NCBI GenBank assembly: GCA_902539235.1
Contig: CACBIC010000001.1
Location: forward strand, 1 to 64,000
DNA: 64,000 nt
Source: an uncultured Pelagibacteraceae bacterium
GTDB lineage: Bacteria > Pseudomonadota > Alphaproteobacteria > Pelagibacterales > Pelagibacteraceae
Reading direction: 5' to 3'
In this document: positions 9,129-30,402 of the stretch, piece by piece
Numbering within the stretch: position 1 is the stretch's first letter
How the letters are laid out: each line of letters begins with the position of its first letter
Notes under the pieces: generated by a model
Databases searched by the model: none
What the model saw: only the letters and a program-made list of their open reading frames with translations
Told to the model about the DNA's origin: nothing
Program-made: the position numbers and the translations under genes

Positions 9129-9251
9129 ATGAATTCAATTTTTCTATTTTTTTTGACGGCATATATTATTTATTACCTTTTTAGACCTGTAACAAAAAAA
9201 GAAATAGAAAAATTCGAAAACCCTGATAATTGGTCAAATATGGGTCTTTAA
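9129..9251 (+). CDS. Small (40 aa) single-pass membrane protein candidate
   Basis: Uninterrupted ORF MNSIFLFFLTAYIIYYLFRPVTKKEIEKFENPDNWSNMGL*: hydrophobic N-terminus, charged tail; below the ORF-track length cutoff. Confidence 0.45.
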   Translation: MNSIFLFFLTAYIIYYLFRPVTKKEIEKFENPDNWSNMGL

Positions 9252-11682: not shown

Positions 11683-11733
11683 AATAAAAATTATATTTAA
11701 TTGATAAACTTCTTTAAATGATATTAATAGATT

Positions 11734-12687: not shown

Positions 12688-12690
12688 AAA

Positions 12691-13617
12691 TTAATCTTTT
12701 TTAATTGGTATAGTTGGGTGTCTCGCAGTAGATGTAACTATATTTTTCTTTAACTTCATTTCTCTCATAACTATGTAAAGTCCAGCTGCAATAATTATTG
12801 CATTTCCTACATAATTATTAATTGTGGGAATTTCGCCAAACACTATGTAACCTAGCAACACTCCTGCAAATATCTGAACATAAATAATCGATCCAAAAAT
12901 AGCGCCAGGAAGATGTCTTGCTGCATTAATTACTAAAATCATCGCTGTTCCTCTAAAAATGCCAGAGATACCATTTAAAACTAAATCATTAAAATTCATA
13001 GTTTTAAAGGAAAAGATTACAAATATGCCTGAAAATATAATCATTAATATTTTTCCATATATAATAAATGAGAATATACTTTCCTGATATCCGTATTTTC
13101 TAACAATCAGATAGCTAGCTGCTGCGCAAAGTGGGCATAATAAAGCTACAAAAACATATGCATCAATTTTTGAGCCAAATGGATCAATTGAGATTAAAGC
13201 CCCTACTAATCCAAAGATAATTGCAGTAAACCTCTTCCATCTCACTACCTCATTTAAAAAAAAAACTGAACCAATCGTTATGATTAATGGAGTTAAAAAA
13301 ACAATGCTGTACATTGTAACCATTGGCATTAAATAAAATCCTGTGTAAGCAAAGAAAACTGCTAGCGCCATTGTTAAAGATCTAAAAAAATGTACTTTAA
13401 AATTTGCGCCCTTTAATTTATTCCATCCATCTAAAGTTTGTGTGTAAAGTATTACAGGTATTAAGGCGAACCAAGAATTAACAAAAATAATTTGAGTAAT
13501 TTTATAATCTTCTGCAATATATTTTACTATTGCATCTTGAGAAACAAACAAAAAATAACCTAAACAGGCGAAAAAAAACTCTGGGAGATAATTTTTCTCC
13601 GATGTTGATGAACTCAT
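12691..13617 (-). CDS. EamA/DMT-family transporter
   Basis: About 10 hydrophobic segments; FFAYTGFYLMPMVTMYSIVFLTPLIITIGSVFFLNEVVRWKRF and C-terminal FGEIPTINNYVGNAIIIAAGLYIVMRE typical of EamA. Confidence 0.9.
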   Translation of the reverse strand: MSSSTSEKNYLPEFFFACLGYFLFVSQDAIVKYIAEDYKITQIIFVNSWFALIPVILYTQTLDGWNKLKGANFKVHFFRSLTMALAVFFAYTGFYLMPMVTMYSIVFLTPLIITIGSVFFLNEVVRWKRFTAIIFGLVGALISIDPFGSKIDAYVFVALLCPLCAAASYLIVRKYGYQESIFSFIIYGKILMIIFSGIFVIFSFKTMNFNDLVLNGISGIFRGTAMILVINAARHLPGAIFGSIIYVQIFAGVLLGYIVFGEIPTINNYVGNAIIIAAGLYIVMREMKLKKNIVTSTARHPTIPIKKD

Positions 13618-14600
13618 TAAATAATATTCGCTAAATCTCTTTTAGTTCCTTTGAAAGTAGGAAGAGGATATTTATAAGACCATTTTCTTGGAATGCATTT
13701 TACTTTAGCTTTTTCCCATAAAGCAATCCATTGTTTATAATTTCGTACTTTTATGTTGTTTTTGTTTTTACTTTTAACAATAAAATTAGGCAATGGATCT
13801 CTTCCTGAAGGCTGACCTGCTTTATTATATCTCAAGTCCATACTTATTCTAAAATATTTTGATTTATTTGGTAGTGAACAATGAAGTAAATATCTATTTA
13901 ATAATATTATATCGCCGACATCAGCTTCAAGAGGTACGGTAGACAACTTATCAATTATTTCTTTGCCTCTAACTTCTACTTGTCCCTTACTTCCATAATC
14001 ATGGTTAACAAGTCCAAATTTATGACTTTCTTTTACAGCAAGCATACAGCCATTTTCTATTCTTGTTTTAGTAAAAGGTATCCAACAAGTTACTAATTCA
14101 GTACCCTTCTGTCCTTTTTTATTCATAACGCCAGCATCTTGATGCCAAGGTGTTCTTCCAACTAGGCCGTCATTTAAATTCTTTTTTGAAACACCTTTTT
14201 CAGGTTGTTTAATTCTTGAATTTTGACAAGGATTAGAAGCTATTTCGGGACCTAGAATTTTTTCAATCTTATTTAAAATCTTTTTATTATTAATTAAATT
14301 CCATATTGATTGACTTGCAAAAAAATCACTATTAGCGTTTATGTTTTTTTCAGGAAGTCTAATGTTAAAATATTGGTCAAGCTCGGGAATATCTAAAGAA
14401 ACCAAATATGAGTATTTTTTCTTAAACTCATAATTTAATACTTTCACTTTATGATTTTTTGGAACGAATCTATGAATAAGCCTATCCATGATAAAAGCCA
14501 TATCATTCAAAATTGGCTCTAAATCCTCTTTATAATTTAAAACGCCTTTTAATCTTATGAAACCTTGTTTCTCAAAAATTCTCTTAATATTTTGGCTCAT
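13617..14600 (-). CDS. Phytanoyl-CoA dioxygenase (PhyH)-family Fe(II)/2OG oxygenase
   Basis: TPWHQDAGVM (HxD), GDIILLNRYLLHCSLPN distal His, FRISMDLRYN. Confidence 0.88.
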   Translation of the reverse strand: MSQNIKRIFEKQGFIRLKGVLNYKEDLEPILNDMAFIMDRLIHRFVPKNHKVKVLNYEFKKKYSYLVSLDIPELDQYFNIRLPEKNINANSDFFASQSIWNLINNKKILNKIEKILGPEIASNPCQNSRIKQPEKGVSKKNLNDGLVGRTPWHQDAGVMNKKGQKGTELVTCWIPFTKTRIENGCMLAVKESHKFGLVNHDYGSKGQVEVRGKEIIDKLSTVPLEADVGDIILLNRYLLHCSLPNKSKYFRISMDLRYNKAGQPSGRDPLPNFIVKSKNKNNIKVRNYKQWIALWEKAKVKCIPRKWSYKYPLPTFKGTKRDLANII

Positions 14601-14641
14601 TGAATTGATAGTACTAATTTGAAAATATTATCAAACTCATT

Positions 14642-15439
14642 TTAGACTGCAAGAGCTTTTCTCATCTCTTCGTCATTCATCTTTTTACCCAGATAGGCTT
14701 CTATTACTGCATTATCGTCTTTAACTTGACTAGGTGTTCCCTCGGCAATTTTTTGCCCATGATCGAGAACTGTCACAGTATTACAGGTATCCATAACTAC
14801 TTTTAATATGTGCTCTATTATAATAAGTGTTAATCCATACTTATCTTTTAATTGCATGATTATCTTCATAAGATTATCAACGTTAACTGGAGATAGTCCT
14901 GCTGCAGGTTCATCTAACATCAATAATTTTGGTTTCATGGCTATTGCTCTAGCTAAAACTAACAAACGTCTTTGGCCTCCAGATAACTCACTTGCATTTA
15001 ATTCTGCATAATCTGCGAGACCTACAAAGGATAATAGTTCCATCATTTCATCTTTGATTTCTTTTTCCTGATCCCAAATTTTCTTTCTTCCAATTACAGC
15101 ATCAAAAAATTTATATTTTACTCTTGTGTGGTAGCCAGACATAACATTATTAATTACTGACATATCTTGGTAAAGTCTTAATAGCTGGAAAGTTCTAGAT
15201 AAACCCAACGCTCCAATCTTATGAGGAGGTTCATTGGTAATATCATGACCATCGAATTCAATATAACTACCTGGATCAGGATCATAAACACCGGAAACTA
15301 AATTAAAAAAAGTGCTTTTTCCTGAACCATTAGGGCCTATTATCCCTCTGATTTCTCCAGCTGGTAACTCGAAGTCAACTTTATTAATAGCTTTTAAACC
15401 ACCAAAAGCTTTCATTAAATTTTTTGTTTTAAGCAACAT
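14642..15439 (-). CDS. livG: Branched-chain amino acid-type ABC transporter ATP-binding protein
   Basis: GPNGSGKST Walker A, LSGGQRR signature, LLMLDEPAAGLSP Walker B; LivG-type length and context. Confidence 0.94.
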   Translation of the reverse strand: MLLKTKNLMKAFGGLKAINKVDFELPAGEIRGIIGPNGSGKSTFFNLVSGVYDPDPGSYIEFDGHDITNEPPHKIGALGLSRTFQLLRLYQDMSVINNVMSGYHTRVKYKFFDAVIGRKKIWDQEKEIKDEMMELLSFVGLADYAELNASELSGGQRRLLVLARAIAMKPKLLMLDEPAAGLSPVNVDNLMKIIMQLKDKYGLTLIIIEHILKVVMDTCNTVTVLDHGQKIAEGTPSQVKDDNAVIEAYLGKKMNDEEMRKALAV

Positions 15440-16428
15440 TACTTGCCTTCCTCAACTTTCTTTTTTTTAAATCTTTTATCTATAAATATCTTATCTATAA
15501 ATCCACCAATACCTTTTGGCATGAATAAAATTGTTAAAACAATTGTTAAGCCAAATATAAATAGTTGATACTCATAAAGAGGACGAGTTAAATCATAGAC
15601 AATTGTAATTATTATTGCTCCTATTATTCCACCCCAAATGTGCCCTAGGCCTCCAAAAACAACCATTGCTAAAAAAGTTACCATCTCAATAACTGTATAA
15701 TTATTTGGATGGATATAACCTGGTGGAAGGTGCGCATATACAGCTCCAGCAGCTCCAGCAAACATTGCGCTTAATATAAATGCCAAAATTTTGTATTTTT
15801 TTATATCTATTCCAGATGCTGCTGCAGAAATTGGATCTTCTCTTACTGACATAAATGCTCTTCCAATAGAGGATTTTAAAATACTGTAAGAAAAGTAAAC
15901 AGCAATTATCATAACTGGTAGGGATATATAATAATATTTATCTGGTGTATCGAATGGAACTCCAAAGATTACAGGTTGAGAAATACTTGAAATTCCATAT
16001 GTTGAATTAAAAAATTCTCCGTTCTCAATAAATAATCTTATTGCTTCTCCCCCTCCTAATGTGGCTAAAGCTAAATAAGGTCCTTCTAATCTAAATGATG
16101 GAATTCCAAAAGCTATTCCAAATAACCCTGTTACTATGATCGCTGCTGGTAAAGTCATCCATAAGTCAGAACCTAAATACATAAACATACATCCAGCTGT
16201 GTAAGAACCGACTGCATATAGACCAACGTGTCCTACAGTGACCTGACCGCAATAACCTTTAACAATGTTTAGTCCCGCAGCAACAATTATATTTATAAAT
16301 ATTAAGCTTGATAAGTGTGATTGATATAAATCAGTAAAAAAAATTGATGGTACAGTTAAAAGTATTAAATAAGCGATTATAAAACCTAAAAATGGGTACT
16401 GGCTTATTATTTTCTTAACTTTTTCCAT
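15439..16428 (-). CDS. livM: Branched-chain amino acid-type ABC transporter permease
   Basis: NIVKGYCGQVTVGHVGLYAVGSYTA, FRLEGPYLALATLGGGEAIRL, VREDPISAAASGIDIKKYK LivM motifs. Confidence 0.94.
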   Translation of the reverse strand: MEKVKKIISQYPFLGFIIAYLILLTVPSIFFTDLYQSHLSSLIFINIIVAAGLNIVKGYCGQVTVGHVGLYAVGSYTAGCMFMYLGSDLWMTLPAAIIVTGLFGIAFGIPSFRLEGPYLALATLGGGEAIRLFIENGEFFNSTYGISSISQPVIFGVPFDTPDKYYYISLPVMIIAVYFSYSILKSSIGRAFMSVREDPISAAASGIDIKKYKILAFILSAMFAGAAGAVYAHLPPGYIHPNNYTVIEMVTFLAMVVFGGLGHIWGGIIGAIIITIVYDLTRPLYEYQLFIFGLTIVLTILFMPKGIGGFIDKIFIDKRFKKKKVEEGK

Positions 16429-17294
16429 TAACCTGCCTCTCTCATTAAATAATCAGAGTCATGTGAAGAAGTTAGCAATTTTTTATTAGTTTTTTTTATT
16501 TTCGGTAAATAGCTGACATTTTTATATCTCCAAACAACCGGTTTGCTTAGAGCATAACTTCCATATATAAAAAATCTTTTTTTCCCTTTAATCTCTTTAA
16601 ATAATGAGACACCGTGATATGAATTAGGAGTAGATTGAAAGAAAATTACACTACCTTTTGATGGGGTAAATTCTTTTACTTTTACAAGTTCAGAAATACT
16701 CGGAAATCTTTTAAAACTTTTTCTAAATTTCATATTTGTCCTTTTTTTAAAAATAGATAATGCTCCACCATTTTTTTTTGGTATGTCGTTTAAATAAATT
16801 AGGAAATTATAAAGTCTTGTAACATCATCTCTATGTGGCCTCAATCTGTAACCACCTCTAGATACCGAAAAATCTATGTCTAAATTTACATTTGGATTTT
16901 TATAAGTCTTTCCTAGCATTTTCATTAGTTCTTTAGAATTCATTAATTTTTTATTAGTAAATTTTTCTCTTAAAAATTTTTGTGGCAAAAACGTATTGGA
17001 CCAACCGTAATTCTTAAAGGTTTTTTTAAATCTTTTTTCAACTTTTTTGTAAAAGGACTGACTATTAAATTGTTTATACAATTTATTAGATAGTTTTGAC
17101 TTTTTTAAATAATTTTTAAAGTTGCTTGATCCTTTATTAATTCTATTTCTTCCACCTTGTATTAAGTCATCAAACGCATTTGCATTTTTGATTTCATTTA
17201 TAAGTTTATCGCAATCTTTTTTTGAAATAATTCCTTTGCCAACCATCACAGGAAAGTTGCTTTTCACTTTCATTAATCCGTTAACATTTATCAT
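16428..17294 (-). CDS. 2OG-Fe(II) oxygenase (prolyl 4-hydroxylase-like fold)
   Basis: GGYRLRPHRDDVTRLYNFLIYLND (HxD), GGALSIF, GSVIFFQSTPNSYHGVSLF (distal His), RFFIYGSYA. Confidence 0.82.
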   Translation of the reverse strand: MINVNGLMKVKSNFPVMVGKGIISKKDCDKLINEIKNANAFDDLIQGGRNRINKGSSNFKNYLKKSKLSNKLYKQFNSQSFYKKVEKRFKKTFKNYGWSNTFLPQKFLREKFTNKKLMNSKELMKMLGKTYKNPNVNLDIDFSVSRGGYRLRPHRDDVTRLYNFLIYLNDIPKKNGGALSIFKKRTNMKFRKSFKRFPSISELVKVKEFTPSKGSVIFFQSTPNSYHGVSLFKEIKGKKRFFIYGSYALSKPVVWRYKNVSYLPKIKKTNKKLLTSSHDSDYLMREAG

Positions 17295-17310
17295 TTTTAT
17301 GATTCCCTTA

Positions 17311-17345
17311 GAAAAATGAGCGGTGTATTAAACACCGCTCATAAA
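17311..17345 (-). terminator. Rho-independent terminator downstream of livK
   Basis: Perfect 10-bp stem TGAGCGGTGT / ACACCGCTCA (17317-17326 / 17332-17341), 5-nt loop, followed on the - strand by ATTTTTC. Confidence 0.85.
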
Positions 17346-17354
17346 TTTTTTTAA

Positions 17355-18551
17355 TTATAGACCGTCACTTGGGTTGAATGTAACTGTACCAGCAACTGCT
17401 GTTTTCCAGTTTTTTCCACCTCTTGAGTATTTGATCATAACTGGTGTTTTGTTACCATCTCTACACTCTGGTGAACCATTCGCACAAAAACTAATTGGTC
17501 CTGAAGCTAATCCAGTAAAATTAGTTATGCCAGCGATAGCATCTCTGACAGCTAACCTATCAGCAGCTAAATCACCTGTGAATTTAGCAGAAGCTTTTGT
17601 CAATGCAGGTTTAAGCATGTCTAAAAGATCTTGCATTTGTGAAAAGTCGTGACCTGGTGTTACACCGTAGGTGTCTTTGATCTTCTTCACAAATTTTTTA
17701 GCGATTGGTCTTGTGTCTGAAGCAGCGAAAGCAGCTGAGTAAACAACTCCAACCGCAGCTTTACCTGCGTTTGTTGGCACTTCTACTTTTGAAGCTACTG
17801 AGTTTGCTACTCTGTGTACGCTTTTTGGTATTCCAACTTCATATGATTGAACAAGCATACGAACTGTTTCATCAACTAGACCAGATAAAACTATTACATC
17901 TGGGTTAGTAGCTTTAGCTTTCATTAAGTAAGATCTAAAGTCAGTTTCTTTTTCACCGGCTTGAACTGCATAAGTTGGTTCAACTCCGTACTCGTCTTTC
18001 ATAAATTGTATCATCTCTTTAGCAAAAACCATGCTGGCTTGGTCAGGCACATAGATATACGCTATCTTTTTACCTTGTTGCTCAGCAGTGAATTTACCTT
18101 GTACAAGTTTATAAAATCTAGAAGATACTGGTACTCTGAATATATATTCACTTCCCTGCATAGTGATTTTAGAACTTGTAGAGTGAGGTATAATTTGCGG
18201 AACTTTTGCTTTAGTTATAACTGGAACCATTGGTAAAGTTACAGAACTACAGCTTGATCCGATTATTACGTGAACTTTGTCTTGGTAGGCAAGTTTTGTA
18301 GCATTCGCTACTCCTTTTTCTGATTTACACTCATCGTTATATAGAGTTAAATCAATTTTTCTACCATTGATACCGCCTTCTTTATTCCACATCTCTACAG
18401 TATCAGTTATTAATTCACCGTGCTTATATCCAACATCTGATAACATTCTAAATGAAACACCAATTTTGATGTCATTTGCTTGTGCTATTGATGATAGGGC
18501 TAAACCAGCAGTGAATACTAGTGTCGAAAAAATAACTTTTAATTTTTTCAT
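17355..18551 (-). CDS. livK: Branched-chain amino acid-type ABC transporter substrate-binding protein (start at 18551; ORF track extends to 18611)
   Basis: MKKLKVIFSTLVFTAGLALSSIAQA signal peptide after GAGGGAAAT SD; DIKIGVSFRMLSDVGYKHGEL, GGINGRKIDLTLYNDE, VIIGSSCSSVTLPMVPV. Confidence 0.93.
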   Translation of the reverse strand: MKKLKVIFSTLVFTAGLALSSIAQANDIKIGVSFRMLSDVGYKHGELITDTVEMWNKEGGINGRKIDLTLYNDECKSEKGVANATKLAYQDKVHVIIGSSCSSVTLPMVPVITKAKVPQIIPHSTSSKITMQGSEYIFRVPVSSRFYKLVQGKFTAEQQGKKIAYIYVPDQASMVFAKEMIQFMKDEYGVEPTYAVQAGEKETDFRSYLMKAKATNPDVIVLSGLVDETVRMLVQSYEVGIPKSVHRVANSVASKVEVPTNAGKAAVGVVYSAAFAASDTRPIAKKFVKKIKDTYGVTPGHDFSQMQDLLDMLKPALTKASAKFTGDLAADRLAVRDAIAGITNFTGLASGPISFCANGSPECRDGNKTPVMIKYSRGGKNWKTAVAGTVTFNPSDGL

Positions 18552-18594
18552 ATTTCCCTCTTTCCTTTTTATTTTAAATCTTCGGCGTTTTTGA

Positions 18595-18632
18595 TTGACG
18601 TCAAAGATCAAATTTAATTAAATGCATTTAAT
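18595..18632. promoter_or_regulatory. Divergent livK/livF promoter region with two perfect palindromes (TTGACGTCAA 18595-18604; ATTAAATGCATTTAAT 18617-18632)
   Basis: Perfect inverted repeats in the 110-bp gap between the livK start (18551) and the livF start (18662). Confidence 0.5.
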
Positions 18633-18661
18633 AAAATATAGAATTTTAAATCAAGTGTTAT

Positions 18662-19387
18662 ATGCTTAAAATAGATGGTCTAGTTTCTGGCTACGGGTCA
18701 GTGCAAATTTTAAATGGTGCAAACATGAAAGTAGATGCACAATCAATAGTTGCATTACTGGGTGGAAATGGCACAGGTAAATCTACAATTTTAAAAGCTT
18801 GTTCTGGATTAATTAGATCTTGGAGTGGGAGTATTAACTTTGATGGAGAAGATATTCATAACAACCCACCTCATAAAATCGTTGAGAGAGGATTAGTTCA
18901 AGTTACCCAAGGAAAAGATGTTTTCCCGGCTATGTCTGTAATTGAAAATTTACGATTAGGTGGGTTCGTTTTAAATTCAAAACAAAAATTAAAAGATAAT
19001 CTTGAAAAAGTATTCGATTATTTTCCAAGATTAAATGAAAGAAAAAATCAATTAGCAGCAACGCTATCAGGTGGTGAACTACAAATGTTATGTATAGGAA
19101 GAGGATTAATGTCTAATCCTAAAATGATAATGCTGGATGAGCCAAGTGCAGCTTTAGCTCCTCAAATCGTTTTGGATATTTTTAAAAATATAAATCGAAT
19201 AAGAAAAGATGGCTTAACAGTACTAGTAGTTGAGCAAAATGTAAGAATGGCATTATTACTAGCTGATTACGGTTATGTGATTAAAGATGGTGTTATTAAA
19301 GTTGAGGGTGAGTCTAAAAAGCTAATGTACGATGACACAGTAAAAGACTCTTATCTAGGAGGCGGAGGAACTACTGCAAATGTTTAA
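18662..19387 (+). CDS. livF: Branched-chain amino acid-type ABC transporter ATP-binding protein
   Basis: GGNGTGKST Walker A, LSGGELQML, MIMLDEPSAALAPQ; LivF-type length. Confidence 0.94.
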   Translation: MLKIDGLVSGYGSVQILNGANMKVDAQSIVALLGGNGTGKSTILKACSGLIRSWSGSINFDGEDIHNNPPHKIVERGLVQVTQGKDVFPAMSVIENLRLGGFVLNSKQKLKDNLEKVFDYFPRLNERKNQLAATLSGGELQMLCIGRGLMSNPKMIMLDEPSAALAPQIVLDIFKNINRIRKDGLTVLVVEQNVRMALLLADYGYVIKDGVIKVEGESKKLMYDDTVKDSYLGGGGTTANV

Positions 19388-20417
19388 AACATTTAAATTT
19401 ACAAGAAAAGTTGAAAATATTTTAATGCTAATATTTACAGCAATTTTTTTAATTTATATCAGCTTAAGTCCTGATATGAGCATTGACTCCTTAAAAGGAG
19501 TATTAGTCATTGGTGTTACCGTTGGAATTATCTACGGCTTAGTAGCAGTTGGTATATCCCTTATTTATACCGGTTTAGATGTTGTTAATTTCTCTCACGG
19601 AGAATTTTTTATGATAGGTGCCTTTACTGGTTTAACAGTTTACAACTTTCTTATAGATGGTGAGTTAATATATGCAATTTTTCCTGAAGCTTATGGTGTC
19701 GTTGGTTATGTAATAGGATTATTTTTTGCCTTTGTATTAATGGGTCTTTTTGGTGTTTTAATAGAGAGAATATTTTTAAGACCTTTAACTAAAAAAGGTG
19801 GTGGATATACTGTAGCTGGAATGGGAATAATCATTTGTGGATTTGGTTTATCTGTAATACTTCAAAATATCGCATATTTAATTTGGAATCCAACTGCACA
19901 TCCCTTTCATGCAGACTTGGGTTTACCAATTAATATAGCTGGAATTACATTACCTATGACATATTTATGGATGTTAGTTACTGGTTTTGTTGTAGCTGGA
20001 GCACTTTACTTCTTCCTGAATAAAACAAAAATGGGGTTAGGCGTAAGAGCAGTAGCATTTTCAAAAGACATCTCTAATTTAGTAGGAATAAATGTTCCAC
20101 TTTATATCTCAATAATTTTTGGTATTGCTTGCGCCCTAGCAGGTATAGCTGGAACATTGGTAGGACCAACTTATCAAGTTGTAGTTTACATGGGGTATAT
20201 TATACTTTTAAAAGCCTTTGCCTCTGCAGTAGTTGGTGGATTTGGAAGTTTACCAGGAGCTATTGTAGGAGGTTTTACAGTTGGGCTTTTTGAAACTGCT
20301 TGCTCATTTTTTATTTCTGGTAGTCATAAAGATGCCTATGCGTTTTTACTTATGGTTGTTGTGTTATTAATTAAACCAACTGGTTTTTTTGGTGTTCAAG
20401 TAAAAATGAAAGCTTAA
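19380..20417 (+). CDS. livH: Branched-chain amino acid-type ABC transporter permease
   Basis: GLVAVGISLIYTGLDVVNFSHGEFFMIGAF, ILLKAFASAVVGGFGSLPGAIVGG LivH motifs. Confidence 0.94.
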   Translation: MFKTFKFTRKVENILMLIFTAIFLIYISLSPDMSIDSLKGVLVIGVTVGIIYGLVAVGISLIYTGLDVVNFSHGEFFMIGAFTGLTVYNFLIDGELIYAIFPEAYGVVGYVIGLFFAFVLMGLFGVLIERIFLRPLTKKGGGYTVAGMGIIICGFGLSVILQNIAYLIWNPTAHPFHADLGLPINIAGITLPMTYLWMLVTGFVVAGALYFFLNKTKMGLGVRAVAFSKDISNLVGINVPLYISIIFGIACALAGIAGTLVGPTYQVVVYMGYIILLKAFASAVVGGFGSLPGAIVGGFTVGLFETACSFFISGSHKDAYAFLLMVVVLLIKPTGFFGVQVKMKA

Positions 20418-21361
20418 TGATAAAGAAAGATACAAAAGTTGCAGTATTAGGTGCTGGTGCTATGGGCTGTCTTTTCGGTGGGTTGTTAGCTGAAAAAGGT
20501 TTAGAGGTTCATCTTATTGATGTTTGGAAAGAACATGTAGACGAAATTAATAGTAAAGGTTTAAAAATGATGGGTCATGGCGGAGATAGGACAATAAAGA
20601 TTCATGCTACGACTGATCCAAAAACTTTAAAACCAGTCGATGCAATAATTATTATGTGTAAAGCCACAGCTTTAGAAGAAGCATTAACAAATTCAAAAAA
20701 TATTATTGGAGATAATACAATGCTTATGTCATTTCAAAATGGTATCGGGCATGAAGAAATCATGCAAAAAATAGCCGGTAAAGAAAAAGTTTTAGGTGGC
20801 TCCACAACACAAGCTTCTAGTATTCAAGGTCCTGGAATAATTCAAAATCATGCAAGTTTACCCTCATGGATTGGTGAATACGAAGGTGGTTCAAGTGATA
20901 GAGTAAAAGATTTAGCTGAAACTTTTACTGCACATGGCTTAGAAACTATTGCAGAAGAAAATATCAAAAGAAGAAAATGGATGAAATTATTTGCTTTAAC
21001 AGCAATTGGTCCATTATCAGCAATATTTGATTTACATCATACAGATTTATACATCGCAAATAAAAATCAAACTATGTCTCGAAAATTAGGTAAAGATATT
21101 ATTCTTGAAACTAGAGAAGTAGCTAAAGCTGATGGGGTTGATGTTAGTGAAAGTGATTGTTTAGAAATGTTCAATAGAATAGTCGACTCAAGACAAACTA
21201 ATAAATCATCTATGGCATTTGATGTTGTAAAGCATAGAAAAACAGAAATTGATTTCATAAGTGGAGCTGTTTCTAAAATTGGAAAAAAACATGGGATTAA
21301 GACGCCTTTAAATGACCTCATGTACAACATTATTAAGATTAAAGAGGGTATGTACGTATAA
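20417..21361 (+). CDS. Ketopantoate reductase (ApbA/PanE)-family protein
   Basis: VAVLGAGAMGCLFGGLLA, MSFQNGIGHEE, RRKWMKLFALTAIGPL, KSSMAFDVVKHRKTEIDFISGAV. Confidence 0.9.
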   Translation: MIKKDTKVAVLGAGAMGCLFGGLLAEKGLEVHLIDVWKEHVDEINSKGLKMMGHGGDRTIKIHATTDPKTLKPVDAIIIMCKATALEEALTNSKNIIGDNTMLMSFQNGIGHEEIMQKIAGKEKVLGGSTTQASSIQGPGIIQNHASLPSWIGEYEGGSSDRVKDLAETFTAHGLETIAEENIKRRKWMKLFALTAIGPLSAIFDLHHTDLYIANKNQTMSRKLGKDIILETREVAKADGVDVSESDCLEMFNRIVDSRQTNKSSMAFDVVKHRKTEIDFISGAVSKIGKKHGIKTPLNDLMYNIIKIKEGMYV

Positions 21362-21366
21362 GGCCT

Positions 21367-23280
21367 GTGTCTAAAGAAATTATTTGGCAACCATCAAAAG
21401 AGCAAATTGAAAATTCAAAACTAACTAAGTTTATACAACATTGTAAATTAAAAAATTACGATGAGCTTGAGAAAAAAAGTTTTTCTGATCCTGGATGGTT
21501 ATGGGACAATGTAATCAAATTTTCGGATATAAAATTTTATAAACCTTACTCAAAAATATTAGATGAATCAAAAGGTGTTCCTTGGACAAGGTGGTGTATC
21601 GGAGGTAAAACTAATATAGTTTTAAATTGTATAGATCGACATAAAGATAAGGAATTTTTTAACAACACTTTCATTTTTGCTGAAAGAGAAGACGGTAAAG
21701 AAAGCTCAATTACTTATAAAGAATTTGATAAGCAAATCTCAAAGGTTGGGAATACTTTAAAAATAAATGGCTTTAAAAAAGGTGATGTAATTGCACTTTA
21801 CATGCCTCAATTTATAGAAACTTACATTGCTTACTTTGCTATTTTAAAAATTGGGTGTGTAGTGCTACCTTTATTCTCTGGATATGGATCAAAGGCAGTT
21901 ATTGAAAGACTCAACATAGCAAAAGCTAAAGGTATTTTTACTGTTGAAAAAACATTTAGAAAAGCAAAAGAAATAAGAATGTTTGATCAAATTAAAAATG
22001 AATTAGATCAAGTCACTTCTTTAGAAAAAACTTTTTTATTAGGAAAAGAGAAAGGAAAGAAAATCTTTAATTGGGAAAATTTTCAAAATGTTTCTGATAA
22101 TTTAAAAACAGAAGAAACCGATGCTGAAGATCCTGCTATTATCCACTTTACATCAGGTACAACTGGAAAACCGAAAGGATGTGTTTATACTCATATTGGT
22201 TTAGTTGCTAAGATGTCGTTTGATGAAGGAGTGTTAGCAGACTTTAAACAAACTGATATTCATTTGTGCATGGCCGATATGGGATGGATGGTGGGTTCTA
22301 AGTCTGCAACAATAGCTTCTTCACATGGAGCACAAATGGTAATCGCTGAGGGAGTTCCTGATTTTCCTGATGAAGTGCGTTTTTGGAAACTCATTGAAAA
22401 ATACAAGGTTTCCTGGACAGAGCTTTCCCCTGCTCTCATCAGAGCACAAATGATTAAAGATGAAAAACTTTTTAAAGATTTAGATTTGAGCTCATTAAGA
22501 ATGATTTGTACTGGTGGAGAACCTTGGACAGAAAAACCTTGGAAATGGTTATTTCAAGTAATTGGTAAGTCAAAAGTTCCCATTATGAATTCAGCTGGGG
22601 GTACTGAGGTTTCTGGTTCTATTTTACATTGTTGTTTACATCGTCCTTTTAAGGTTGGATCTTTTAATGCTCCCATTCCTGGAATGAGTGCAGACATCTT
22701 AAATTTAAATGGAAAAAAAGTTTCTACAAATGAAATGGGTGAATTGGTCATGAGAAAATCATCAATCGGATTAACAAAGAGTTTATGGAATGACGACAAG
22801 CGTTACATCGATAATTATTGGAGTATAATTAAAAATTATTGGGTACATGGTGATCTTGCAAGTAGAGACACTGACGGCCATTGGTATTTGCATGGAAGAT
22901 CTGATGATACTATAAAAGTATCAGGCAAAAGAATTGGTCCATCAGAGCTCGAGAGCGTAATAGTCAAAAGTGGAAAAGCAAAAGAGGTCGCTGCTGTTGG
23001 AATACCTGACGCAAATAAAGGGTCAAAAATTATTTTATCTATCGTTCCAGCAGAAAATAATGATCAAAAAGAAAGTTTTTTTGAAGATTTAGTTATAAAA
23101 GATTTAGGGAAATCATTTAAGCCTGATAAGGTAATTTTTGTAAAAGATTTACCTAAAACAAGAAATATGAAAATAATGAGAAGAGTTATAAAATCATGTT
23201 TAGCAAACCAAGACCCAGGTGATTTATCAACGCTATTAAATCCAGAATCTGTAGAGGAGATTAGATCACATGCAATTTAA
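21367..23280 (+). CDS. AMP-forming acyl-CoA synthetase (acetoacetyl-/acetyl-CoA synthetase-like); GTG start
   Basis: IIHFTSGTTGKPKGCVYTH, NSAGGTEVSG, WVHGDLASRDTDGHWYLHGRSDDTIKVSGKRIGPSELES, LPKTRNMKIMRRVIK. Confidence 0.93.
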   Translation: MSKEIIWQPSKEQIENSKLTKFIQHCKLKNYDELEKKSFSDPGWLWDNVIKFSDIKFYKPYSKILDESKGVPWTRWCIGGKTNIVLNCIDRHKDKEFFNNTFIFAEREDGKESSITYKEFDKQISKVGNTLKINGFKKGDVIALYMPQFIETYIAYFAILKIGCVVLPLFSGYGSKAVIERLNIAKAKGIFTVEKTFRKAKEIRMFDQIKNELDQVTSLEKTFLLGKEKGKKIFNWENFQNVSDNLKTEETDAEDPAIIHFTSGTTGKPKGCVYTHIGLVAKMSFDEGVLADFKQTDIHLCMADMGWMVGSKSATIASSHGAQMVIAEGVPDFPDEVRFWKLIEKYKVSWTELSPALIRAQMIKDEKLFKDLDLSSLRMICTGGEPWTEKPWKWLFQVIGKSKVPIMNSAGGTEVSGSILHCCLHRPFKVGSFNAPIPGMSADILNLNGKKVSTNEMGELVMRKSSIGLTKSLWNDDKRYIDNYWSIIKNYWVHGDLASRDTDGHWYLHGRSDDTIKVSGKRIGPSELESVIVKSGKAKEVAAVGIPDANKGSKIILSIVPAENNDQKESFFEDLVIKDLGKSFKPDKVIFVKDLPKTRNMKIMRRVIKSCLANQDPGDLSTLLNPESVEEIRSHAI

Positions 23281-24040
23281 AGATATATTATATGAAGTCA
23301 AAGGTGACTACGCTCATGTCACTATAAATAGACCTAAAGTGTTAAATGCTTTTACACCAGTAACTCTTCAAGAACTTAAGACAGCTCTTGATGCTGCAGA
23401 AAAAGATAAAGAAGTTGGAGTAATAGTTTTATCAGGTGCTGGAGATAGAGCCTTTTGCTCTGGTGGAGATATGAATTGGGAAAGTTCTAAAGAATTTCAA
23501 AATCATGAATACGAATTTCATATTCACTTAACAAAATGTAGTAAACCAATCATAGCTAAAGTTGATGGGTACGCGATTGGTGGTGGAAATCATATGGCTT
23601 ACTTTTGTGATTTAACTATAGCAAGTGAGAATTCTATATTTGGACAAAATGGTCCCCGAGTTGGTTCTCCAGCCGGAGGAGCTATCGTTGCTCATTCTGC
23701 GAATATTTTAGGACATAAACGAGCAAGAGAAATGTGGATGACTTGTAAAAGATACTCAGCAAAAGAGATGATGAATTGGGGTTTGGTAAATTCAGTAGTG
23801 AAAAAAGATAAATTAGATGAGGAAGTTAAAAAGTATGGCGATGAAATTTTAAAAGCTGCACCAACTTGTTTAAAAATATTAAAGGCCAGTTTTAGAAAAC
23901 AATTTGAAGAAATTTTAAAAATTACACAAAAAGGTATGGTTGAAGAAGTTGCTCCTGGCTATTTTAAAACTGGAGAACAGGCAGAAGGCGCTAAGGCCTT
24001 TCTAGGAAAAAGAAAGCCAAATTTCAAAAAATTTAGATAA
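23270..24040 (+). CDS. Enoyl-CoA hydratase/isomerase (crotonase)-family protein, BadI/MenB-like
   Basis: MQFKDILYEV, INRPKVLNAFTP, LSGAGDRAFCSGGDM, DGYAIGGGNHMAYFCDLTIAS, FGQNGPRVGS, HKRAREMWMTCKRYSAKEM. Confidence 0.9.
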   Translation: MQFKDILYEVKGDYAHVTINRPKVLNAFTPVTLQELKTALDAAEKDKEVGVIVLSGAGDRAFCSGGDMNWESSKEFQNHEYEFHIHLTKCSKPIIAKVDGYAIGGGNHMAYFCDLTIASENSIFGQNGPRVGSPAGGAIVAHSANILGHKRAREMWMTCKRYSAKEMMNWGLVNSVVKKDKLDEEVKKYGDEILKAAPTCLKILKASFRKQFEEILKITQKGMVEEVAPGYFKTGEQAEGAKAFLGKRKPNFKKFR

Positions 24041-25128
24041 TGAAAATTAAATCAATCAAAGCAATCACTTTGAGTATGCCGTTTAGCCATGGAGGAAAAA
24101 AGGTAATTTTTCATGGAAAAGAATGGAAAAGTTTAGAATTTAACTTAGTAAAAATTGAAACAGATAAAGGTATCACTGGTTGGGGTGAAGCCTTTGGTTA
24201 TACAAGTTGGAAAGCAGTAAAAATAGCAATTGAAGAGATGGTGGCTCCTTTACTCGTTGGAAAAGACATGAGTAATATACCAGAACTTCTTTTAACTCTT
24301 CAAAAATCTTTGCACTTATTTGGTAGATACGGGATAACAATGTTTGCAATATCTGGTATTGAAATTGCATTATGGGATGCTTTAGGCAAAGAAAAAAATA
24401 AGCCAATTCATGAATTGTTAGGAAAAAAAAATAAAGATCTATTTAAAGCCTATTCAAGTCTTTTTAGATATGGTGATCCAAAAATAATAGAGCAAAAATG
24501 CAAGCAATCACTAGATGATGGTTACCAAGCTATAAAACTTCATGAAATAGAAAATGATTCTATTGAAGCAGGAAGAAAAGGAACAGGTAATCTTCCTTTA
24601 ATGTTAGATACTAATTGTCCTTGGACTTATGAGGAAACATTATCCAAAAAAGATTTTTTAAAAAGTATGAAACTAACTTGGTTGGAAGAACCTATTTACC
24701 CGCCAGAAGATTATGAAACTCTTGCAAAATTGAATAAAGAACTTGGAATACCTATAGCCTGCGGAGAGAATGCGTGCACAGAATTTGAGTTTAAATCAAT
24801 GATCAAACAAAAAGCAGTTACTTTTGTTCAACCATCAGTAATTAAAGTTGGTGGTATTTATGAAATGTTTAAAATTATTCAGTATGCAGAAAAAAATAAT
24901 GTCTCTGTAATGCCTCATACTGCTTATTTTGGACCAGGTTTTTTAGCTACGCTTCAATTAGCTGCATTGATGGAAAAAGATACCTATATTGAGAGATTCT
25001 ATTTAGATATTGATCAAGAATTCTACCCAAATTTTAAAAGAGCATTAAATGGGAAATATAAATTACCTTCAGGACCAGGTCTTGGTATTGACTTAGATTA
25101 TAATAAATTAAGTAAATATGAAATATAG
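24040..25128 (+). CDS. Mandelate racemase/muconate lactonizing enzyme (enolase superfamily)
   Basis: AISGIEIALWDALGKEKNKPIHELLG, AIKLHE, LMLDTNCPW, WLEEPIYP, CGENACTEFEF, VMPHTAYFGPG metal and base positions. Confidence 0.92.
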   Translation: MKIKSIKAITLSMPFSHGGKKVIFHGKEWKSLEFNLVKIETDKGITGWGEAFGYTSWKAVKIAIEEMVAPLLVGKDMSNIPELLLTLQKSLHLFGRYGITMFAISGIEIALWDALGKEKNKPIHELLGKKNKDLFKAYSSLFRYGDPKIIEQKCKQSLDDGYQAIKLHEIENDSIEAGRKGTGNLPLMLDTNCPWTYEETLSKKDFLKSMKLTWLEEPIYPPEDYETLAKLNKELGIPIACGENACTEFEFKSMIKQKAVTFVQPSVIKVGGIYEMFKIIQYAEKNNVSVMPHTAYFGPGFLATLQLAALMEKDTYIERFYLDIDQEFYPNFKRALNGKYKLPSGPGLGIDLDYNKLSKYEI

Positions 25129-25768
25129 ATCTGTTTTATTCGTTCCAGGACATGAAGAAAAAAAAATTAAAAAAGCATATACATTAAATGCAGATTTAAT
25201 AGTTCTTGACTTAGAATCAACTGTTCCTGAAAATCAGAAAGATCAGGCTAAAAAAATAATAAAAGAATGCAATGTTAATAAAGATCAAACATATATAAGG
25301 ATAAATAATAATTTAGATTTAGAATTTGTTACATCAGAAAAATTCCCTGGAATATTTCTTCCATTTACAGAAACAAAAAAACAATTAATTGAGATAGATA
25401 TATTATTAAAAAAAACTGAGAAATTGAAAACTGATATAATCCCAATTTTGGAAAGTATAAACGGTCTAGCTAATCTTGAGGAAATTTGTTCTTTTTCAGA
25501 AAGAATTCAAATTATATCTTTTGGCTCTCATGATTTAGCTAAATCTATAAATCTTAAGATTTCAGAAGATGAAAAAGAAATAGTAGAATTTAGAAAAAAT
25601 ATAGTAAATAAATCTAAAAATATTAAGAGCCCAATAGATACCTCTTATTTAAATTTTAAAGATTTAAATGGATTTGAAAAATCATGTAATTTTGTAAAAA
25701 AATTAGGTTTTGGTGGTAAAGCTTGTATTCATCCGGACCAAGTTCAAATCTCAAACAAAATTTTTTAA
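25118..25768 (+). CDS. HpcH/HpaI aldolase / CitE-like CoA ester lyase
   Basis: RSVLFVPGHEEKKIKKA, ADLIVLDLESTVPENQK, IPILESINGL, FGSHDLA, GFGGKACIHPDQV. Confidence 0.88.
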   Translation: MKYRSVLFVPGHEEKKIKKAYTLNADLIVLDLESTVPENQKDQAKKIIKECNVNKDQTYIRINNNLDLEFVTSEKFPGIFLPFTETKKQLIEIDILLKKTEKLKTDIIPILESINGLANLEEICSFSERIQIISFGSHDLAKSINLKISEDEKEIVEFRKNIVNKSKNIKSPIDTSYLNFKDLNGFEKSCNFVKKLGFGGKACIHPDQVQISNKIF

Positions 25769-26172
25769 TGATAAATACTAAGAAACTTTTGTACTTTGCT
25801 TATGGTACAAATCTTAATAAAAAAATTTTTTTAAAAAAATATAAAAACGCTAAATATCTAAGCAAACATATTTTAAAAGATTTTGAATTAGTCTTTAGAT
25901 CAAAATATAGGGTACCAGATATACAAAGAAAAAAAGGTTCAAGTGTGAAAGGTATTATCTATGAAATAGATAAAATAACCGAGAAAAAATTAGATAGATA
26001 CGAAGACTATCCTAAGTTATATATAAAAAAATTTTTTAATAAAAAAAATAAAAATGTAATGTATTATTTCATGAAAAGAAAAACTCCTATTTTAAAGCCT
26101 GCAAAATACTACCTTAAAGTCATGAAAAGCGGCTATCGACAAAATAACTATAAATTTAACTTCAAATATTAA
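25768..26172 (+). CDS. Gamma-glutamylcyclotransferase (AIG2/GGCT)-like protein (likely start ATG 25768)
   Basis: LLYFAYGTNLNKKIFLKK, GSSVKGIIYEI, KKLDRYEDYPKLY. Confidence 0.8.
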   Translation: MINTKKLLYFAYGTNLNKKIFLKKYKNAKYLSKHILKDFELVFRSKYRVPDIQRKKGSSVKGIIYEIDKITEKKLDRYEDYPKLYIKKFFNKKNKNVMYYFMKRKTPILKPAKYYLKVMKSGYRQNNYKFNFKY

Positions 26173-26173
26173 A

Positions 26174-27214
26174 GTGAAAAACAAAATAAAGATTGCAGTT
26201 GTTGGGATTGGCTTGATGGGGAGTCAGCATTTAAAAGCTTTAAGTGTTTCAAAAAAAGCAAAACTCCATTCTATTGTAGATGTAAATAAAAATTCTATAA
26301 CACATGCTAAAAAATTTAAAGTTCCATTCTATAGATCGTCGACTGAATTACTTAGTAATAATAAACCAGATGCCGTAATTGTTGCTACACCCAATCAGTT
26401 TCACGAAAAACATACGATAAGTTTTTTAAATGCAAAAATACCTGTTTTATTAGAAAAACCAATTTCCGATAATATTTCAAAAGCAAAAAAAATTATTCAA
26501 AGCTCAAAAAAAAATAAAACTCATCTACTTATTGGCTATCATAGAAGGCACAACAGTATCGTAACTAAAGTAAAGAAACAAATCGATAGCGGAAATCTTG
26601 GAAAAATTGTTGCTGCTAATGTTATGTGCTGGTTGTACAAAAATAAAGATTGGTACAAAGAAAAATGGCGTATTAAAAAAGGAGGAGGTCCTCTAGGTAT
26701 TAATCTAGTACATGATATTGATCTTATTTGTTACTTATTAGGTCCCATAACATATGTTCAAGCAACAACCTCAAATAAAATTAGAAAATATGAAGTTGAA
26801 GATACCGCAATTGTTAATTTTACTTTTAGATCAGGTGCTTTATGCACATTAAGTGTTTCTGATACAATTGTAGCTCCTTACAGTTATGAGCTTACAGCTG
26901 GAGAAAACCCTGCATACCCTATAACAAATCAATCAGCATATTTTATTGGAGGGACAAAAGGCTCGATACAATTTCCTAATTTAAAACATTGGTACAATAG
27001 AGGTGAGAGAAGTTGGTGGAAACCAATCTATCATAAAGATTTTAATATTCGTTTGAGTAGATTTACTTTAATAAATCAAATTGATCACTTATGCGATGTT
27101 GTGTCTGGAAAAGCTAAACCAAAAGTAAGTGGAAATGATGGCTTGCAATCGCTTAAAATATTTGATGCCATACTAAAAAGTACTAAAACTGGGAAAAAAA
27201 TAAGAGTAAACTAA
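26174..27214 (+). CDS. Gfo/Idh/MocA-family oxidoreductase (1 of 3 tandem); GTG start
   Basis: AVVGIGLMGSQHLKAL, PDAVIVATPNQFHEKH, LLEKPIS, INLVHDIDLICYLLG. Confidence 0.92.
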   Translation: MKNKIKIAVVGIGLMGSQHLKALSVSKKAKLHSIVDVNKNSITHAKKFKVPFYRSSTELLSNNKPDAVIVATPNQFHEKHTISFLNAKIPVLLEKPISDNISKAKKIIQSSKKNKTHLLIGYHRRHNSIVTKVKKQIDSGNLGKIVAANVMCWLYKNKDWYKEKWRIKKGGGPLGINLVHDIDLICYLLGPITYVQATTSNKIRKYEVEDTAIVNFTFRSGALCTLSVSDTIVAPYSYELTAGENPAYPITNQSAYFIGGTKGSIQFPNLKHWYNRGERSWWKPIYHKDFNIRLSRFTLINQIDHLCDVVSGKAKPKVSGNDGLQSLKIFDAILKSTKTGKKIRVN

Positions 27215-28344
27215 TGAAAAGACTTAAACTTGGTATCATTGGTGGTGGCCCTGGATCTTGGATTGGTCATGTACATAGAATAGCCTCAAGATTCGATGAT
27301 AAATATGAAATTGTAGCTGGCGTTTTTTCAAGAAATTATAAAATCAATCAATCTTTTGGGTCAAGTATAGGAATAAAAAAAAATAGGTGTTACAAAAATT
27401 ATAAAGATCTTTGCTATTCTGAAAAAAAAATTAAAAATGGTATCGATGTAGTAGCGATTATGACACCCCCTGGGAGTCATCAAGAAATAGCGGAATTATT
27501 CATTAAAAATAATATTCATGTAATATCTGATAAACCATTTGCGGGTTCTCTACCTCAAGCTAAAAAACTTTATAAAACAATTAAAAGTAATAAAAAGATT
27601 GTTTACGGGCTCACACATAATTATTCAGCCTATCCAATGGTAAGACATGCTAAAAAATTAGTAGAAGATAAGAAGCTTGGAAATATTGAATATATTAACG
27701 TCGAATATGTTCAAGATTGGTCTAACGGTAAAAAAGTTACCCCGGGTTCTGCAAAAAAAATATTTAAATGGAAATTAGATAAAAAAATAGCTGGAGTTTC
27801 TACTGTGCTTAATGAAATTGGATCTCATGCATATCATTTATGTAATTACATTACTGGTCTTAAAGGAAAAAGCTTATTTGCAGATATCAAGCAATACTCC
27901 AAAAAAATTAAATTTGATACAAACGCCCAAGTTTTCATAAATTACGAGAATGGTGCAAAGGGTTTATTTTGGGCATCAACTACTGCTAAAGGGGGTGTTT
28001 ATGGATTACGAATAAGAATATTTGGTTCGATGGGAAGTTTGGAATGGGTACAGAATGACCCCAACTATTTAAAATATAATGCTGCTAATGGCGCAACGAA
28101 AGTTTTAGAAAGAGGTTTCAATGAAAGTGGTTTTTCAAAAAACTTTTCAAGAATCAAGTACGGACATCCTGAGGGATATTTAAGTGCCTTTTCAAATTTA
28201 TATAAAGAAATTGCATCAAAAATTAATTCAAAAAATAGTAAGAAAAGGTTTTATTTTCCAACAGCATATGAAGGTTTACTTACAGCAAGATTTATAGACG
28301 GATGTGTAAAGTCATCATCCAAGAAAAAATGGGTAGCTTTTTAA
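27214..28344 (+). CDS. Gfo/Idh/MocA-family oxidoreductase (2 of 3 tandem)
   Basis: GIIGGGPGSWIGHVHRIASR, DVVAIMTPPGSHQEIAELFI, VISDKPFA, GLTHNYSAYPMVRHAKKLV. Confidence 0.9.
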   Translation: MKRLKLGIIGGGPGSWIGHVHRIASRFDDKYEIVAGVFSRNYKINQSFGSSIGIKKNRCYKNYKDLCYSEKKIKNGIDVVAIMTPPGSHQEIAELFIKNNIHVISDKPFAGSLPQAKKLYKTIKSNKKIVYGLTHNYSAYPMVRHAKKLVEDKKLGNIEYINVEYVQDWSNGKKVTPGSAKKIFKWKLDKKIAGVSTVLNEIGSHAYHLCNYITGLKGKSLFADIKQYSKKIKFDTNAQVFINYENGAKGLFWASTTAKGGVYGLRIRIFGSMGSLEWVQNDPNYLKYNAANGATKVLERGFNESGFSKNFSRIKYGHPEGYLSAFSNLYKEIASKINSKNSKKRFYFPTAYEGLLTARFIDGCVKSSSKKKWVAF

Positions 28345-29256
28345 ATGATTAAATCCTGTGTGATAGGATTATCAAAAGTTGGTATAATTCATTGTAAAAG
28401 TTTAATAAAAATAAAAAAAACTTCGTTAAATTATATTTTTGATAAAAATTACAATCTAAGCAAAAGACTATCTAAAAAATTTAAATGTAACACTTCAAGA
28501 AATTTCGACAGTATATTAAAAAAAAAAGATATAGAACTATTTATAATTGCATCACCTACAATTACGCATGATTTTTACATAAAAAAATTAATAAAATTTA
28601 GGAAAATGATCTATTGTGAAAAACCAATTACAAATAATAATAAAAGCCTTAATAAACTCAAATACTTAATAAAAAAACATAAAATTAAATTTTGCGCTGG
28701 TTTAAATCGTAGATTTTCAAAGGAATATGTTGCTTTAAAAAAGAAAATTAACAAAAAAAAAGTTAATTATATCCAAATAATATCTAGATCGGCCAATCAT
28801 AATATTAATTTATCTGTAAGAAACGGAGGTCTTTTTTTTGATAAAGGATTTCATTTTTTTGATTTAGCTTGTTGGTTGAGTAATTCGAAACCAGAAAAAA
28901 TGATTGTAATTTCAAAATCAATAAGTACCGAGGATTTCTTAAATAATGGAGATTTCTCAGATGCAATAATTAATCTAAAACTAAGGAATGGAATAGTCGT
29001 TGAAATAGTATTTAGTAGAAAGTGCAGATTTGGAAATATTGAAAAAATTAAAGTATATGGTGAAAAATTTTCATTAGACTCTGACGACTTTTCTGACAAA
29101 AAGACATTATATGATGACTTTTCTGTAAGACACAGAAAGTCATACTTAAATTGTTTAAAAAAATTTATTGAAAGTAAAAATAATCTCTTAATGAATGAAG
29201 CAATATTAACTCAAAAGATATGTGCTGATGCTTTGAAAAAAGCAAGGTACCAGTAA
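28345..29256 (+). CDS. Gfo/Idh/MocA-family oxidoreductase (3 of 3 tandem), divergent
   Basis: IELFIIASPTITHDFYIKKLI, IYCEKPITNN, FCAGLNRRFSKEY, GGLFFDKGFHFFDLACWL; N-terminal Rossmann motif degenerate (GLSKVG). Confidence 0.82.
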   Translation: MIKSCVIGLSKVGIIHCKSLIKIKKTSLNYIFDKNYNLSKRLSKKFKCNTSRNFDSILKKKDIELFIIASPTITHDFYIKKLIKFRKMIYCEKPITNNNKSLNKLKYLIKKHKIKFCAGLNRRFSKEYVALKKKINKKKVNYIQIISRSANHNINLSVRNGGLFFDKGFHFFDLACWLSNSKPEKMIVISKSISTEDFLNNGDFSDAIINLKLRNGIVVEIVFSRKCRFGNIEKIKVYGEKFSLDSDDFSDKKTLYDDFSVRHRKSYLNCLKKFIESKNNLLMNEAILTQKICADALKKARYQ

Positions 29257-30402
29257 TTATAAATATTTACTTAAAGCTCTACTTGCAAGTATTGATGAGG
29301 AAATATCAGTTTTAAATGTATTTAAGATTGATTGAGTCTTTTCAACCTGCTCCTTTATCTTACTCGGGTCATCAATAAAAGAACTTACAGATTTGAATAA
29401 ATCTTTTGGATTACACTTAGATTGAAGTAATTCAGGTATTACCTCTTTTCCTGCTGCAATATTAATAATATTTGCGAATTTAACTTTAATCAAAGATTTA
29501 ACAATTAAATAGTTTAAAAAATTCATTTTATAGAGAATGATGGATGGAACTTTAGATTTACAAATTTCAAGCGAGACCGTTCCTGATTTAGCAACTGCAA
29601 ATACAGATTTCTTAAGAGTGTGAGACTTTATTTTATCATCACTAATAATTTCACAATTACTTATATTTTGAGATTTTACGTAAGATTGAATTAAATCATA
29701 ATGTTGCTTTGTAGAGTGAAATATATAAATAAAATCTTGATAACTTTTATTCATTAATTTTATAAAATCTAAGAGTATAGGCATTAAGACATCAATTTCA
29801 GATGCTCTACTTCCTGGAAAAACTGATATTAATGCTTTATTTTTTTCAAATATTTGATTGATGTCGATTTTACCTTCAGAAGACTCATCTAATAAGGGAT
29901 GGCCCACAAACTCATTGCTCATATTCTCTTTATCAAAATACGGTTTTTCAAAATTAAATAATAATAATATATGATCAATAAACTTCTTAATTTTCTTAAC
30001 TCTTCCTTCTCTCCAAACCCAAACTTGTGGTGCAACATAATGAATTGTTTTTATATTTGAATTTTGTTTTTTTACGCGTTCAGCAACTCTTAAAGTAAAA
30101 TCGGGACTATCAACTGTAAATAAAATATCTGGATTAAAATCTTTTATAGCATTAACAGTTTCATTAATTTTTTTATTAATTTTGAAAATATTTTTTATAA
30201 CATTTGTAAAACCTATATAGGTAATCTCTTTTAAATCATAAATCGATTTTATACCTAAAGCTTCTAAATTTTCACCCCCCACACATAAATACTCGATTTC
30301 GGAATTGTCTTTTTTAAATTCTTTAATTACTTTTGATGCGAGTTTGTCTCCAGACGGCTCACCTGTAAGTATAAATATTTTTTTCACTTGTGCATTCTCC
30401 AA
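29257..30402 (-). CDS. lpxB: Lipid-A-disaccharide synthase
   Basis: ILTGEPSGDKLASKVI, HYVAPQVWVWREGRVKKI, FVGHPLLDE, SVFPGSRASEI. Confidence 0.96.
   Translation of the reverse strand: MENAQVKKIFILTGEPSGDKLASKVIKEFKKDNSEIEYLCVGGENLEALGIKSIYDLKEITYIGFTNVIKNIFKINKKINETVNAIKDFNPDILFTVDSPDFTLRVAERVKKQNSNIKTIHYVAPQVWVWREGRVKKIKKFIDHILLLFNFEKPYFDKENMSNEFVGHPLLDESSEGKIDINQIFEKNKALISVFPGSRASEIDVLMPILLDFIKLMNKSYQDFIYIFHSTKQHYDLIQSYVKSQNISNCEIISDDKIKSHTLKKSVFAVAKSGTVSLEICKSKVPSIILYKMNFLNYLIVKSLIKVKFANIINIAAGKEVIPELLQSKCNPKDLFKSVSSFIDDPSKIKEQVEKTQSILNTFKTDISSSILASRALSKYL

Follow-up and report, generated by a model that had tools for sequence, protein, structure and literature searches.

We analysed a 64,000-nucleotide stretch of DNA from an uncultured Pelagibacteraceae bacterium (the window; positions 1 to 64,000 of contig CACBIC010000001.1) and found that positions 10160-29256 form a 19-kb accessory island, carried by a subset of SAR11 strains, that joins a complete Liv-type importer to about ten metabolic enzymes. 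The conserved co-occurrence of these genes and a binding protein without amino-group ligands make it very probable that the island is one unit that takes up and catabolizes a carboxylate other than an amino acid, as the sequence-only reading of this DNA had proposed. Two of the outcomes named there as refuting that reading were examined and neither did so: co-occurrence proved to be conserved, and the LivK pocket is without amino-group ligands. Our best reading of the whole, to which we give a probability of roughly 0.5, is that the island imports a quinate- or shikimate-like alicyclic polyhydroxy carboxylate and breaks it down through CoA-dependent steps. The substrate assignment by itself, an alicyclic polyhydroxy acid, is tentative and falls slightly short of even odds.

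The importer is a full five-gene HAAT system with a substrate-binding protein, two permeases and two ATPases. Its genes diverge, with LivK (17355-18554), LivM (15439-16428) and LivG (14642-15439) on the minus strand and LivF (18662-19387) and LivH (19380-20417) on the plus strand, an arrangement already recognized from the sequence alone. The two arms point away from each other across a 107-base gap (18555-18661), the putative divergent livK/livF promoter region, once LivK is taken to start where its orthologues begin, at the ATG at 18554 instead of the TTG at 18611. We aligned the window's LivK and its orthologues from three distant alphaproteobacterial genomes (G294, G281 and G203) with E. 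coli LivJ/LivK and found the same residues in all of them. Ser79 and Thr102, the carboxylate ligands of the LIV-binding protein, are kept, while Tyr150 and Glu226, its amino-group ligands, are replaced by Ala and Ser; position 100 is His. With the amino-group ligands lost and the carboxylate ligands kept, uptake of leucine or valine is unlikely and the importer likely carries a carboxylate, judging from the pocket alignment. An ordinary branched-chain amino acid importer lying beside unrelated genes, which the Liv family names would suggest, is extremely improbable in view of these lost residues and of island genes that are inherited and move together. The best match of LivK to a solved HAAT protein scores about 71 bits, compared to 47-50% identity with its distant alphaproteobacterial orthologues. 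An AlphaFold model of LivK (mean pLDDT of 50) was too low in confidence for use and was set aside.

The core genes of the island are inherited together. We compared 72 named SAR11 loci, counting each gene only where the contig reaches it (54 to 69 loci), and found an EamA-type permease (54/54), LivG (54/54), LivM (55/55), LivK (59/59), LivF (62/62), LivH (62/62), the PanE-family reductase, the CoA ligase, the crotonase, the MR/MLE enzyme (68/68), the CitE-like lyase (62/62) and the Gfo/Idh/MocA protein GfoA (60/60) at every testable locus. Gene order is mostly kept, and the co-occurrence of the core genes is far above chance. Two oxygenases on the livKMG side had been counted as part of the system and both are present; the PhyH-type Fe(II)/2OG oxygenase (13617-14600, minus strand, PF05721) is nearly universal (53/54 loci, 50-97% identity), but the 2OG-Fe(II) oxygenase between LivM and LivK (16428-17294, minus strand, PF13640) occurs at 36 of 56 loci and is optional. 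Three plus-strand genes are similarly variable, namely the GGACT/AIG2-like gene (25768-26172, PF06094, its start likely near 25768 rather than 25723; 31/61 loci), GfoB (27214-28344; 37/58) and GfoC (28345-29256; 35/57), the last two encoding Gfo/Idh/MocA proteins. The 72 loci are mutually related and were all identified by their ligase, so they are not independent events, and moves between chromosomal sites and distant orthologues weigh more than these counts.

Such moves are observed. In other SAR11 lineages the same gene set sits at different chromosomal sites, with the SDR oxidoreductase, the HpaH-like gene and the DUF1907 gene mostly still attached, and these three genes therefore belong to the unit. 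In the window, the inserted segment is delimited by an HDAC-like gene of the acetylpolyamine/amide hydrolase family (9234-10163) on the left and lpxB (29257-30402) on the right. Among 12 same-genus genomes without a matching ligase, a search with lpxB gave 11 matches, and six of these regions were compared; five show the HDAC-like gene directly against lpxB, which marks 10160-29256 as the insertion. In the sixth region (G036), GfoC adjoins lpxB at a contig end, so that the apparent lack of a ligase can stem from a gap in the assembly. Consequently, the island's prevalence, with the ligase detected in 17 of the 49 genus genomes sampled (one partial), or about a third, is a lower bound. The system had earlier been placed at 13617-29256; its right end holds, while the left end lies farther out at 10160 and takes in the SDR, HpaH-like, DUF1907 and EamA genes that had been missed. 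In close relatives the island is found as a conserved accessory unit. The named contigs nearest by ligase (protein identity up to 98%) are Pelagibacteraceae single-cell genomes, which places the window in SAR11.

The evidence on the substrate comes chiefly from related clusters outside SAR11. In our class-level sample, LivK matched above threshold only in G203, G281 and G294, and a fourth genome, G452, was found through PanE; plasmid searches with PanE and LivK gave no match. All four genomes hold the importer genes and PanE as one cluster (loci L166-L172, with L170 in G294), in which PanE adjoins the importer in three and lies in the same cluster in the fourth (L170). The importer layout is divergent in three of the four, and HpaH-like, AP_endonuc_2 TIM-barrel and second SDR genes are present in all. 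The G294 and G281 clusters, which lie on long contigs, continue with an SDR, an acyl-CoA dehydrogenase, a CoA-transferase, a Gfo protein and a type II 3-dehydroquinate dehydratase that scores above cut-off. Further dehydroquinate dehydratases are encoded elsewhere in both genomes, so the copy in the cluster is probably catabolic. The G281 cluster also holds a full-length homologue of QuiC, the 3-dehydroshikimate dehydratase. We found no published description of these clusters.

At the sequence level, the island's importer, PanE, Gfo, SDR and HpaH-like genes are homologous to those of this dehydratase-bearing cluster. Identity to the L170 proteins is 64% for LivG, 46% for LivM, 41% for the SDR (10160-10906, minus strand, an SDR1 orthologue at the left end of the island), 27% for the HpaH/2-keto-4-pentenoate hydratase-like protein (10903-11682, minus strand; a weak HpaH match of 50.9 bits) and 28% by tblastn for the inositol-2-dehydrogenase-like GfoA (26174-27214, plus strand), to which the L172 Gfo is also related. 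It is chiefly the dehydratases in these importer/PanE clusters that suggest a quinate- or shikimate-like substrate. The sequence-only reading had offered a cyclic hydroxy acid as one option, and it is this option that the comparative evidence favours. The marine alga Phaeocystis pouchetii is reported to contain a metabolite resembling quinic acid (PMC7686483), a finding that lends the substrate plausibility and is not proof of it. Beside the G294 cluster lies a DmdA-like gene (L170 1015-2169; dimethylsulfoniopropionate demethylase family, 371/410 bits). The mycosporine-like amino acid substrate that this gene prompted us to consider was rejected, as the stretches compared from G281, G203 and G452 carry no such gene.

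The PanE/ApbA-family reductase (20417-21361, plus strand) scores above the TIGR00745 cut-off (247.5 bits) and raises the alternative that the island is a system for pantoate or another branched hydroxy acid built around a genuine ketopantoate reductase. In one clade the island is also followed immediately by PanB-like and BASS/PanS-like genes (L072 18880-20774). These genes, however, fall under their cut-offs and occur at one locus only, and PanE elsewhere sits in dehydratase-containing catabolic clusters, which leaves the pantoate explanation very unlikely.

We then consider the enzymes that SAR11 has where the related clusters use others: a ligase, a crotonase, an MR/MLE enzyme and a CitE-like lyase. 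The ligase (21367-23280, plus strand) belongs to the acetyl-CoA-synthetase superfamily; the ACAS_N, AMP-binding and C-terminal domains are present and the catalytic Lys609 is kept. Its score of 471.4 bits, against an acetyl-CoA synthetase cut-off of 657, lies below every curated cut-off for acetate, propionate and acetoacetate, and its acyl pocket is enlarged by three substitutions (Trp414 to Gly, Trp413 to Ala and Val386 to Gly). With Trp414 lost and all cut-offs missed, activation of acetate, acetoacetate or propionate was rejected, and the pocket residues indicate that the ligase probably acts on an acid larger than acetate. Catabolism of acyclic terpenes or other acyl-CoA substrates, considered from plasmid relatives of the ligase (about 35-36%), was likewise discarded, the gene contents there being unlike those of the island.

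The crotonase (23270-24040, plus strand) belongs to a MenB/BadI-related subfamily with the motif GGGNHxAY...GxRVGSPA. It scores about equally against MenB and BadI and under both cut-offs (247.2 bits for BadI, against 467.6 for the NCBIfam family). Ala occupies the position of the catalytic Asp of MenB and BadI (Asp163 of E. coli MenB), and the MenB residues Arg91 and Tyr97 fall within a deletion. The same Ala is found in SAR11, in a Leisingera and in the genomes G309, G298, G107 and G441, whereas Asp is found in the three BadI proteins and E. coli MenB compared. Relatives in Leisingera and several alphaproteobacterial genomes (54-59% identity) share GGGNHxAY and GSPA, and in a tree the SAR11/Leisingera group stands apart from MenB and BadI, with a deeper order that is unsafe owing to long-branch outgroups. 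The BadI-like hydrolysis of a C-C bond proposed earlier is not supported by this comparison, and membership in BadI, with its ring hydrolysis, was rejected. Some thioester step is likely, while ring opening by this enzyme is possible and rather doubtful.

The ligase and crotonase also bear on whether the island encodes a pathway of the bad/ali kind, directed at cyclohexane carboxylate or at a simple acid, alicyclic or branched. The bad-ali pathway (PMC9795900) likewise has a CoA ligase and a MenB/BadI-family crotonase, and among the nearest ligases seen outside SAR11 (44%) are some that lie beside a near-cut-off BadI (L128 and L129). However, the island has no acyl-CoA dehydrogenase, AliB or BadK, its crotonase lacks the BadI Asp, its ligase is of a different family, and several more distant ligase relatives sit in other acyl-CoA clusters. 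We consider such a pathway quite improbable here.

The MR/MLE enzyme (24040-25128, plus strand) is an enolase-superfamily protein nearest to sugar-acid dehydratases and cycloisomerases. Its metal ligands (D, E and E) and a catalytic His in a PH(T/S) motif are conserved with its relatives, and the second barrel strand ends in K-L-H, not K-x-K, both in SAR11 and in three relatives. The CitE/HpcH-family lyase (25118-25768, plus strand) has a metal-binding Glu and Asp that align with those of 5vxc and 8khl; at 216 amino acids it stops near profile position 233 of 288 and lacks the usual C-terminal region. Together with three inositol-dehydrogenase-like proteins and the AP_endonuc_2 TIM-barrel protein of the distant clusters, these enzymes would fit import of a sugar acid or cyclitol (aldonate, aldarate or inositol-like), with CoA chemistry coming late. 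Uronate and aldarate pathways share the MR/MLE, CitE/HpcH-type and Gfo enzymes, but the island has no Udh or dedicated transporter of that kind, and K-x-H replaces K-x-K. The distant clusters showed no homologue of MR/MLE or of CitE and hold the dehydroquinate dehydratase, acyl-CoA dehydrogenase and CoA-transferase. On balance, a sugar acid or cyclitol is unlikely to be the imported compound.

A less unlikely alternative, although still one we doubt, is that two unrelated modules lie side by side, one that handles a carboxylate with the importer, PanE, ligase and crotonase, and one that handles a sugar acid with MR/MLE, CitE and the Gfo genes. At three loci (L069, L077 and L090), the plain MR/MLE gene gives way to a divergent one, which is separated from the crotonase by a TRAP transporter and a Udh/Azf-like dehydrogenase, and the order of TRAP transporter, dehydrogenase and MR/MLE recurs on an Agrobacterium plasmid (L157). 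Set against this, crotonase and MR/MLE are adjacent at most other loci, with a one-base overlap in the window itself, both MR/MLE and CitE are present wherever testable, and a Gfo gene is also found in the distant importer clusters. The insert (L069 4057-8951, L077 12722-17620 and L090 12720-17611) also carries an M24 peptidase, and its MR/MLE is about 60% identical to the window's. At one further locus (L096 12680-13834), a weakly beta-lactamase-like gene (PF00144, below cut-off) lies between crotonase and MR/MLE.

Several points weigh against a quinate- or shikimate-like substrate. Neither a dehydroquinate nor a dehydroshikimate dehydratase lies within the SAR11 island (10160-29256), and with LivK at about 50% identity a common importer is no proof that the substrate is common too. 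The G281 QuiC homologue scores 845 bits, under the curated cut-off of 1200; the relationships of GfoA and the HpaH-like protein to the related clusters are weak (about 28% and 27%); the crotonase lacks the BadI/MenB catalytic Asp; and the MR/MLE-CitE part, which can be exchanged for one that brings a TRAP transporter of its own, may serve another substrate. In known quinate/shikimate catabolism, dehydroquinate dehydratase and QuiC lead to protocatechuate; the related importer clusters contain both dehydratases and the SAR11 island neither; any CoA route would be new.

From these comparisons we infer the identity of the substrate, the order of the steps and the products, as follows. The Liv-type importer, through a binding protein for a carboxylate that lacks an alpha-amino group, would take up an organic acid. 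This acid is most likely a quinate/shikimate-type alicyclic polyhydroxy carboxylate, and the dehydrogenases conserved with it (PanE-like, GfoA and SDR) would oxidize its hydroxyls. The ligase would take an acid that does not fit an acetate pocket because of its size and convert it to the CoA thioester, and the crotonase would act on that thioester, probably by ring opening or hydration, through catalytic residues unlike those of MenB and BadI. The HpaH-like, MR/MLE and CitE-like enzymes would then turn the opened chain into central metabolites by dehydration and cleavage. A more specific proposal, which we regard as rather unlikely, is that SAR11 has a CoA-dependent, non-protocatechuate route that opens the rings of quinate/shikimate-type (or related cyclohexenone) phytoplankton metabolites, using a new crotonase subfamily, in which His takes the usual position of the acid residue, and an importer family specific to acids of this type.

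The remaining features complete the picture of the island, whose host assembly is small, with a completeness of 71%, and whose window is A+T-rich. All previously named open reading frames are intact at their coordinates and family searches back their names at the family level; most neighbouring island genes overlap by 1-11 bases or sit at most 5 bases apart. The left arm also encodes the EamA-type permease (12691-13617, minus strand, PF00892) and a DUF1907 protein (11734-12687, plus strand; C11orf54-like, a putative metal-dependent ester hydrolase; PF08925, 215.6 bits), whose gene accompanies the island in relatives on one side or the other. After livK lies an 11-bp hairpin (17316-17342, minus strand), its stem preserved by compensatory changes in other SAR11 loci, that is probably a partial terminator or messenger RNA stabilizer favouring the binding protein. 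Rfam matched no family in the region, and a promoter scan found the region no richer than shuffled sequence. Two importer haplotypes with different promoter regions occur in SAR11, and the window is a mosaic across 14642-20417: its LivK is 97-100% identical to haplotypes without the 16428 oxygenase, yet the oxygenase is present and about 92% identical to that of the other haplotype. At L085 (3110-11917), the LivK-LivF-LivH-PanE segment lies in the opposite orientation to the other island genes.

A full-text search of the open-access literature, whose coverage leaves out most subscription journals, found no description of the island. SAR11 are the ocean's most abundant bacteria, with streamlined cells thought to use few small molecules. 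If our reading is true, this 19-kb island, conserved yet optional and equipped with a binding-protein-dependent importer, would add a compound class to the SAR11 diet, create niche differences within SAR11 and draw attention to a part of the ocean's dissolved carbon that has been overlooked. Concrete handles for identifying the compound are the importer family, which other alphaproteobacteria share, and the crotonase subfamily, which occurs in a Leisingera and others.

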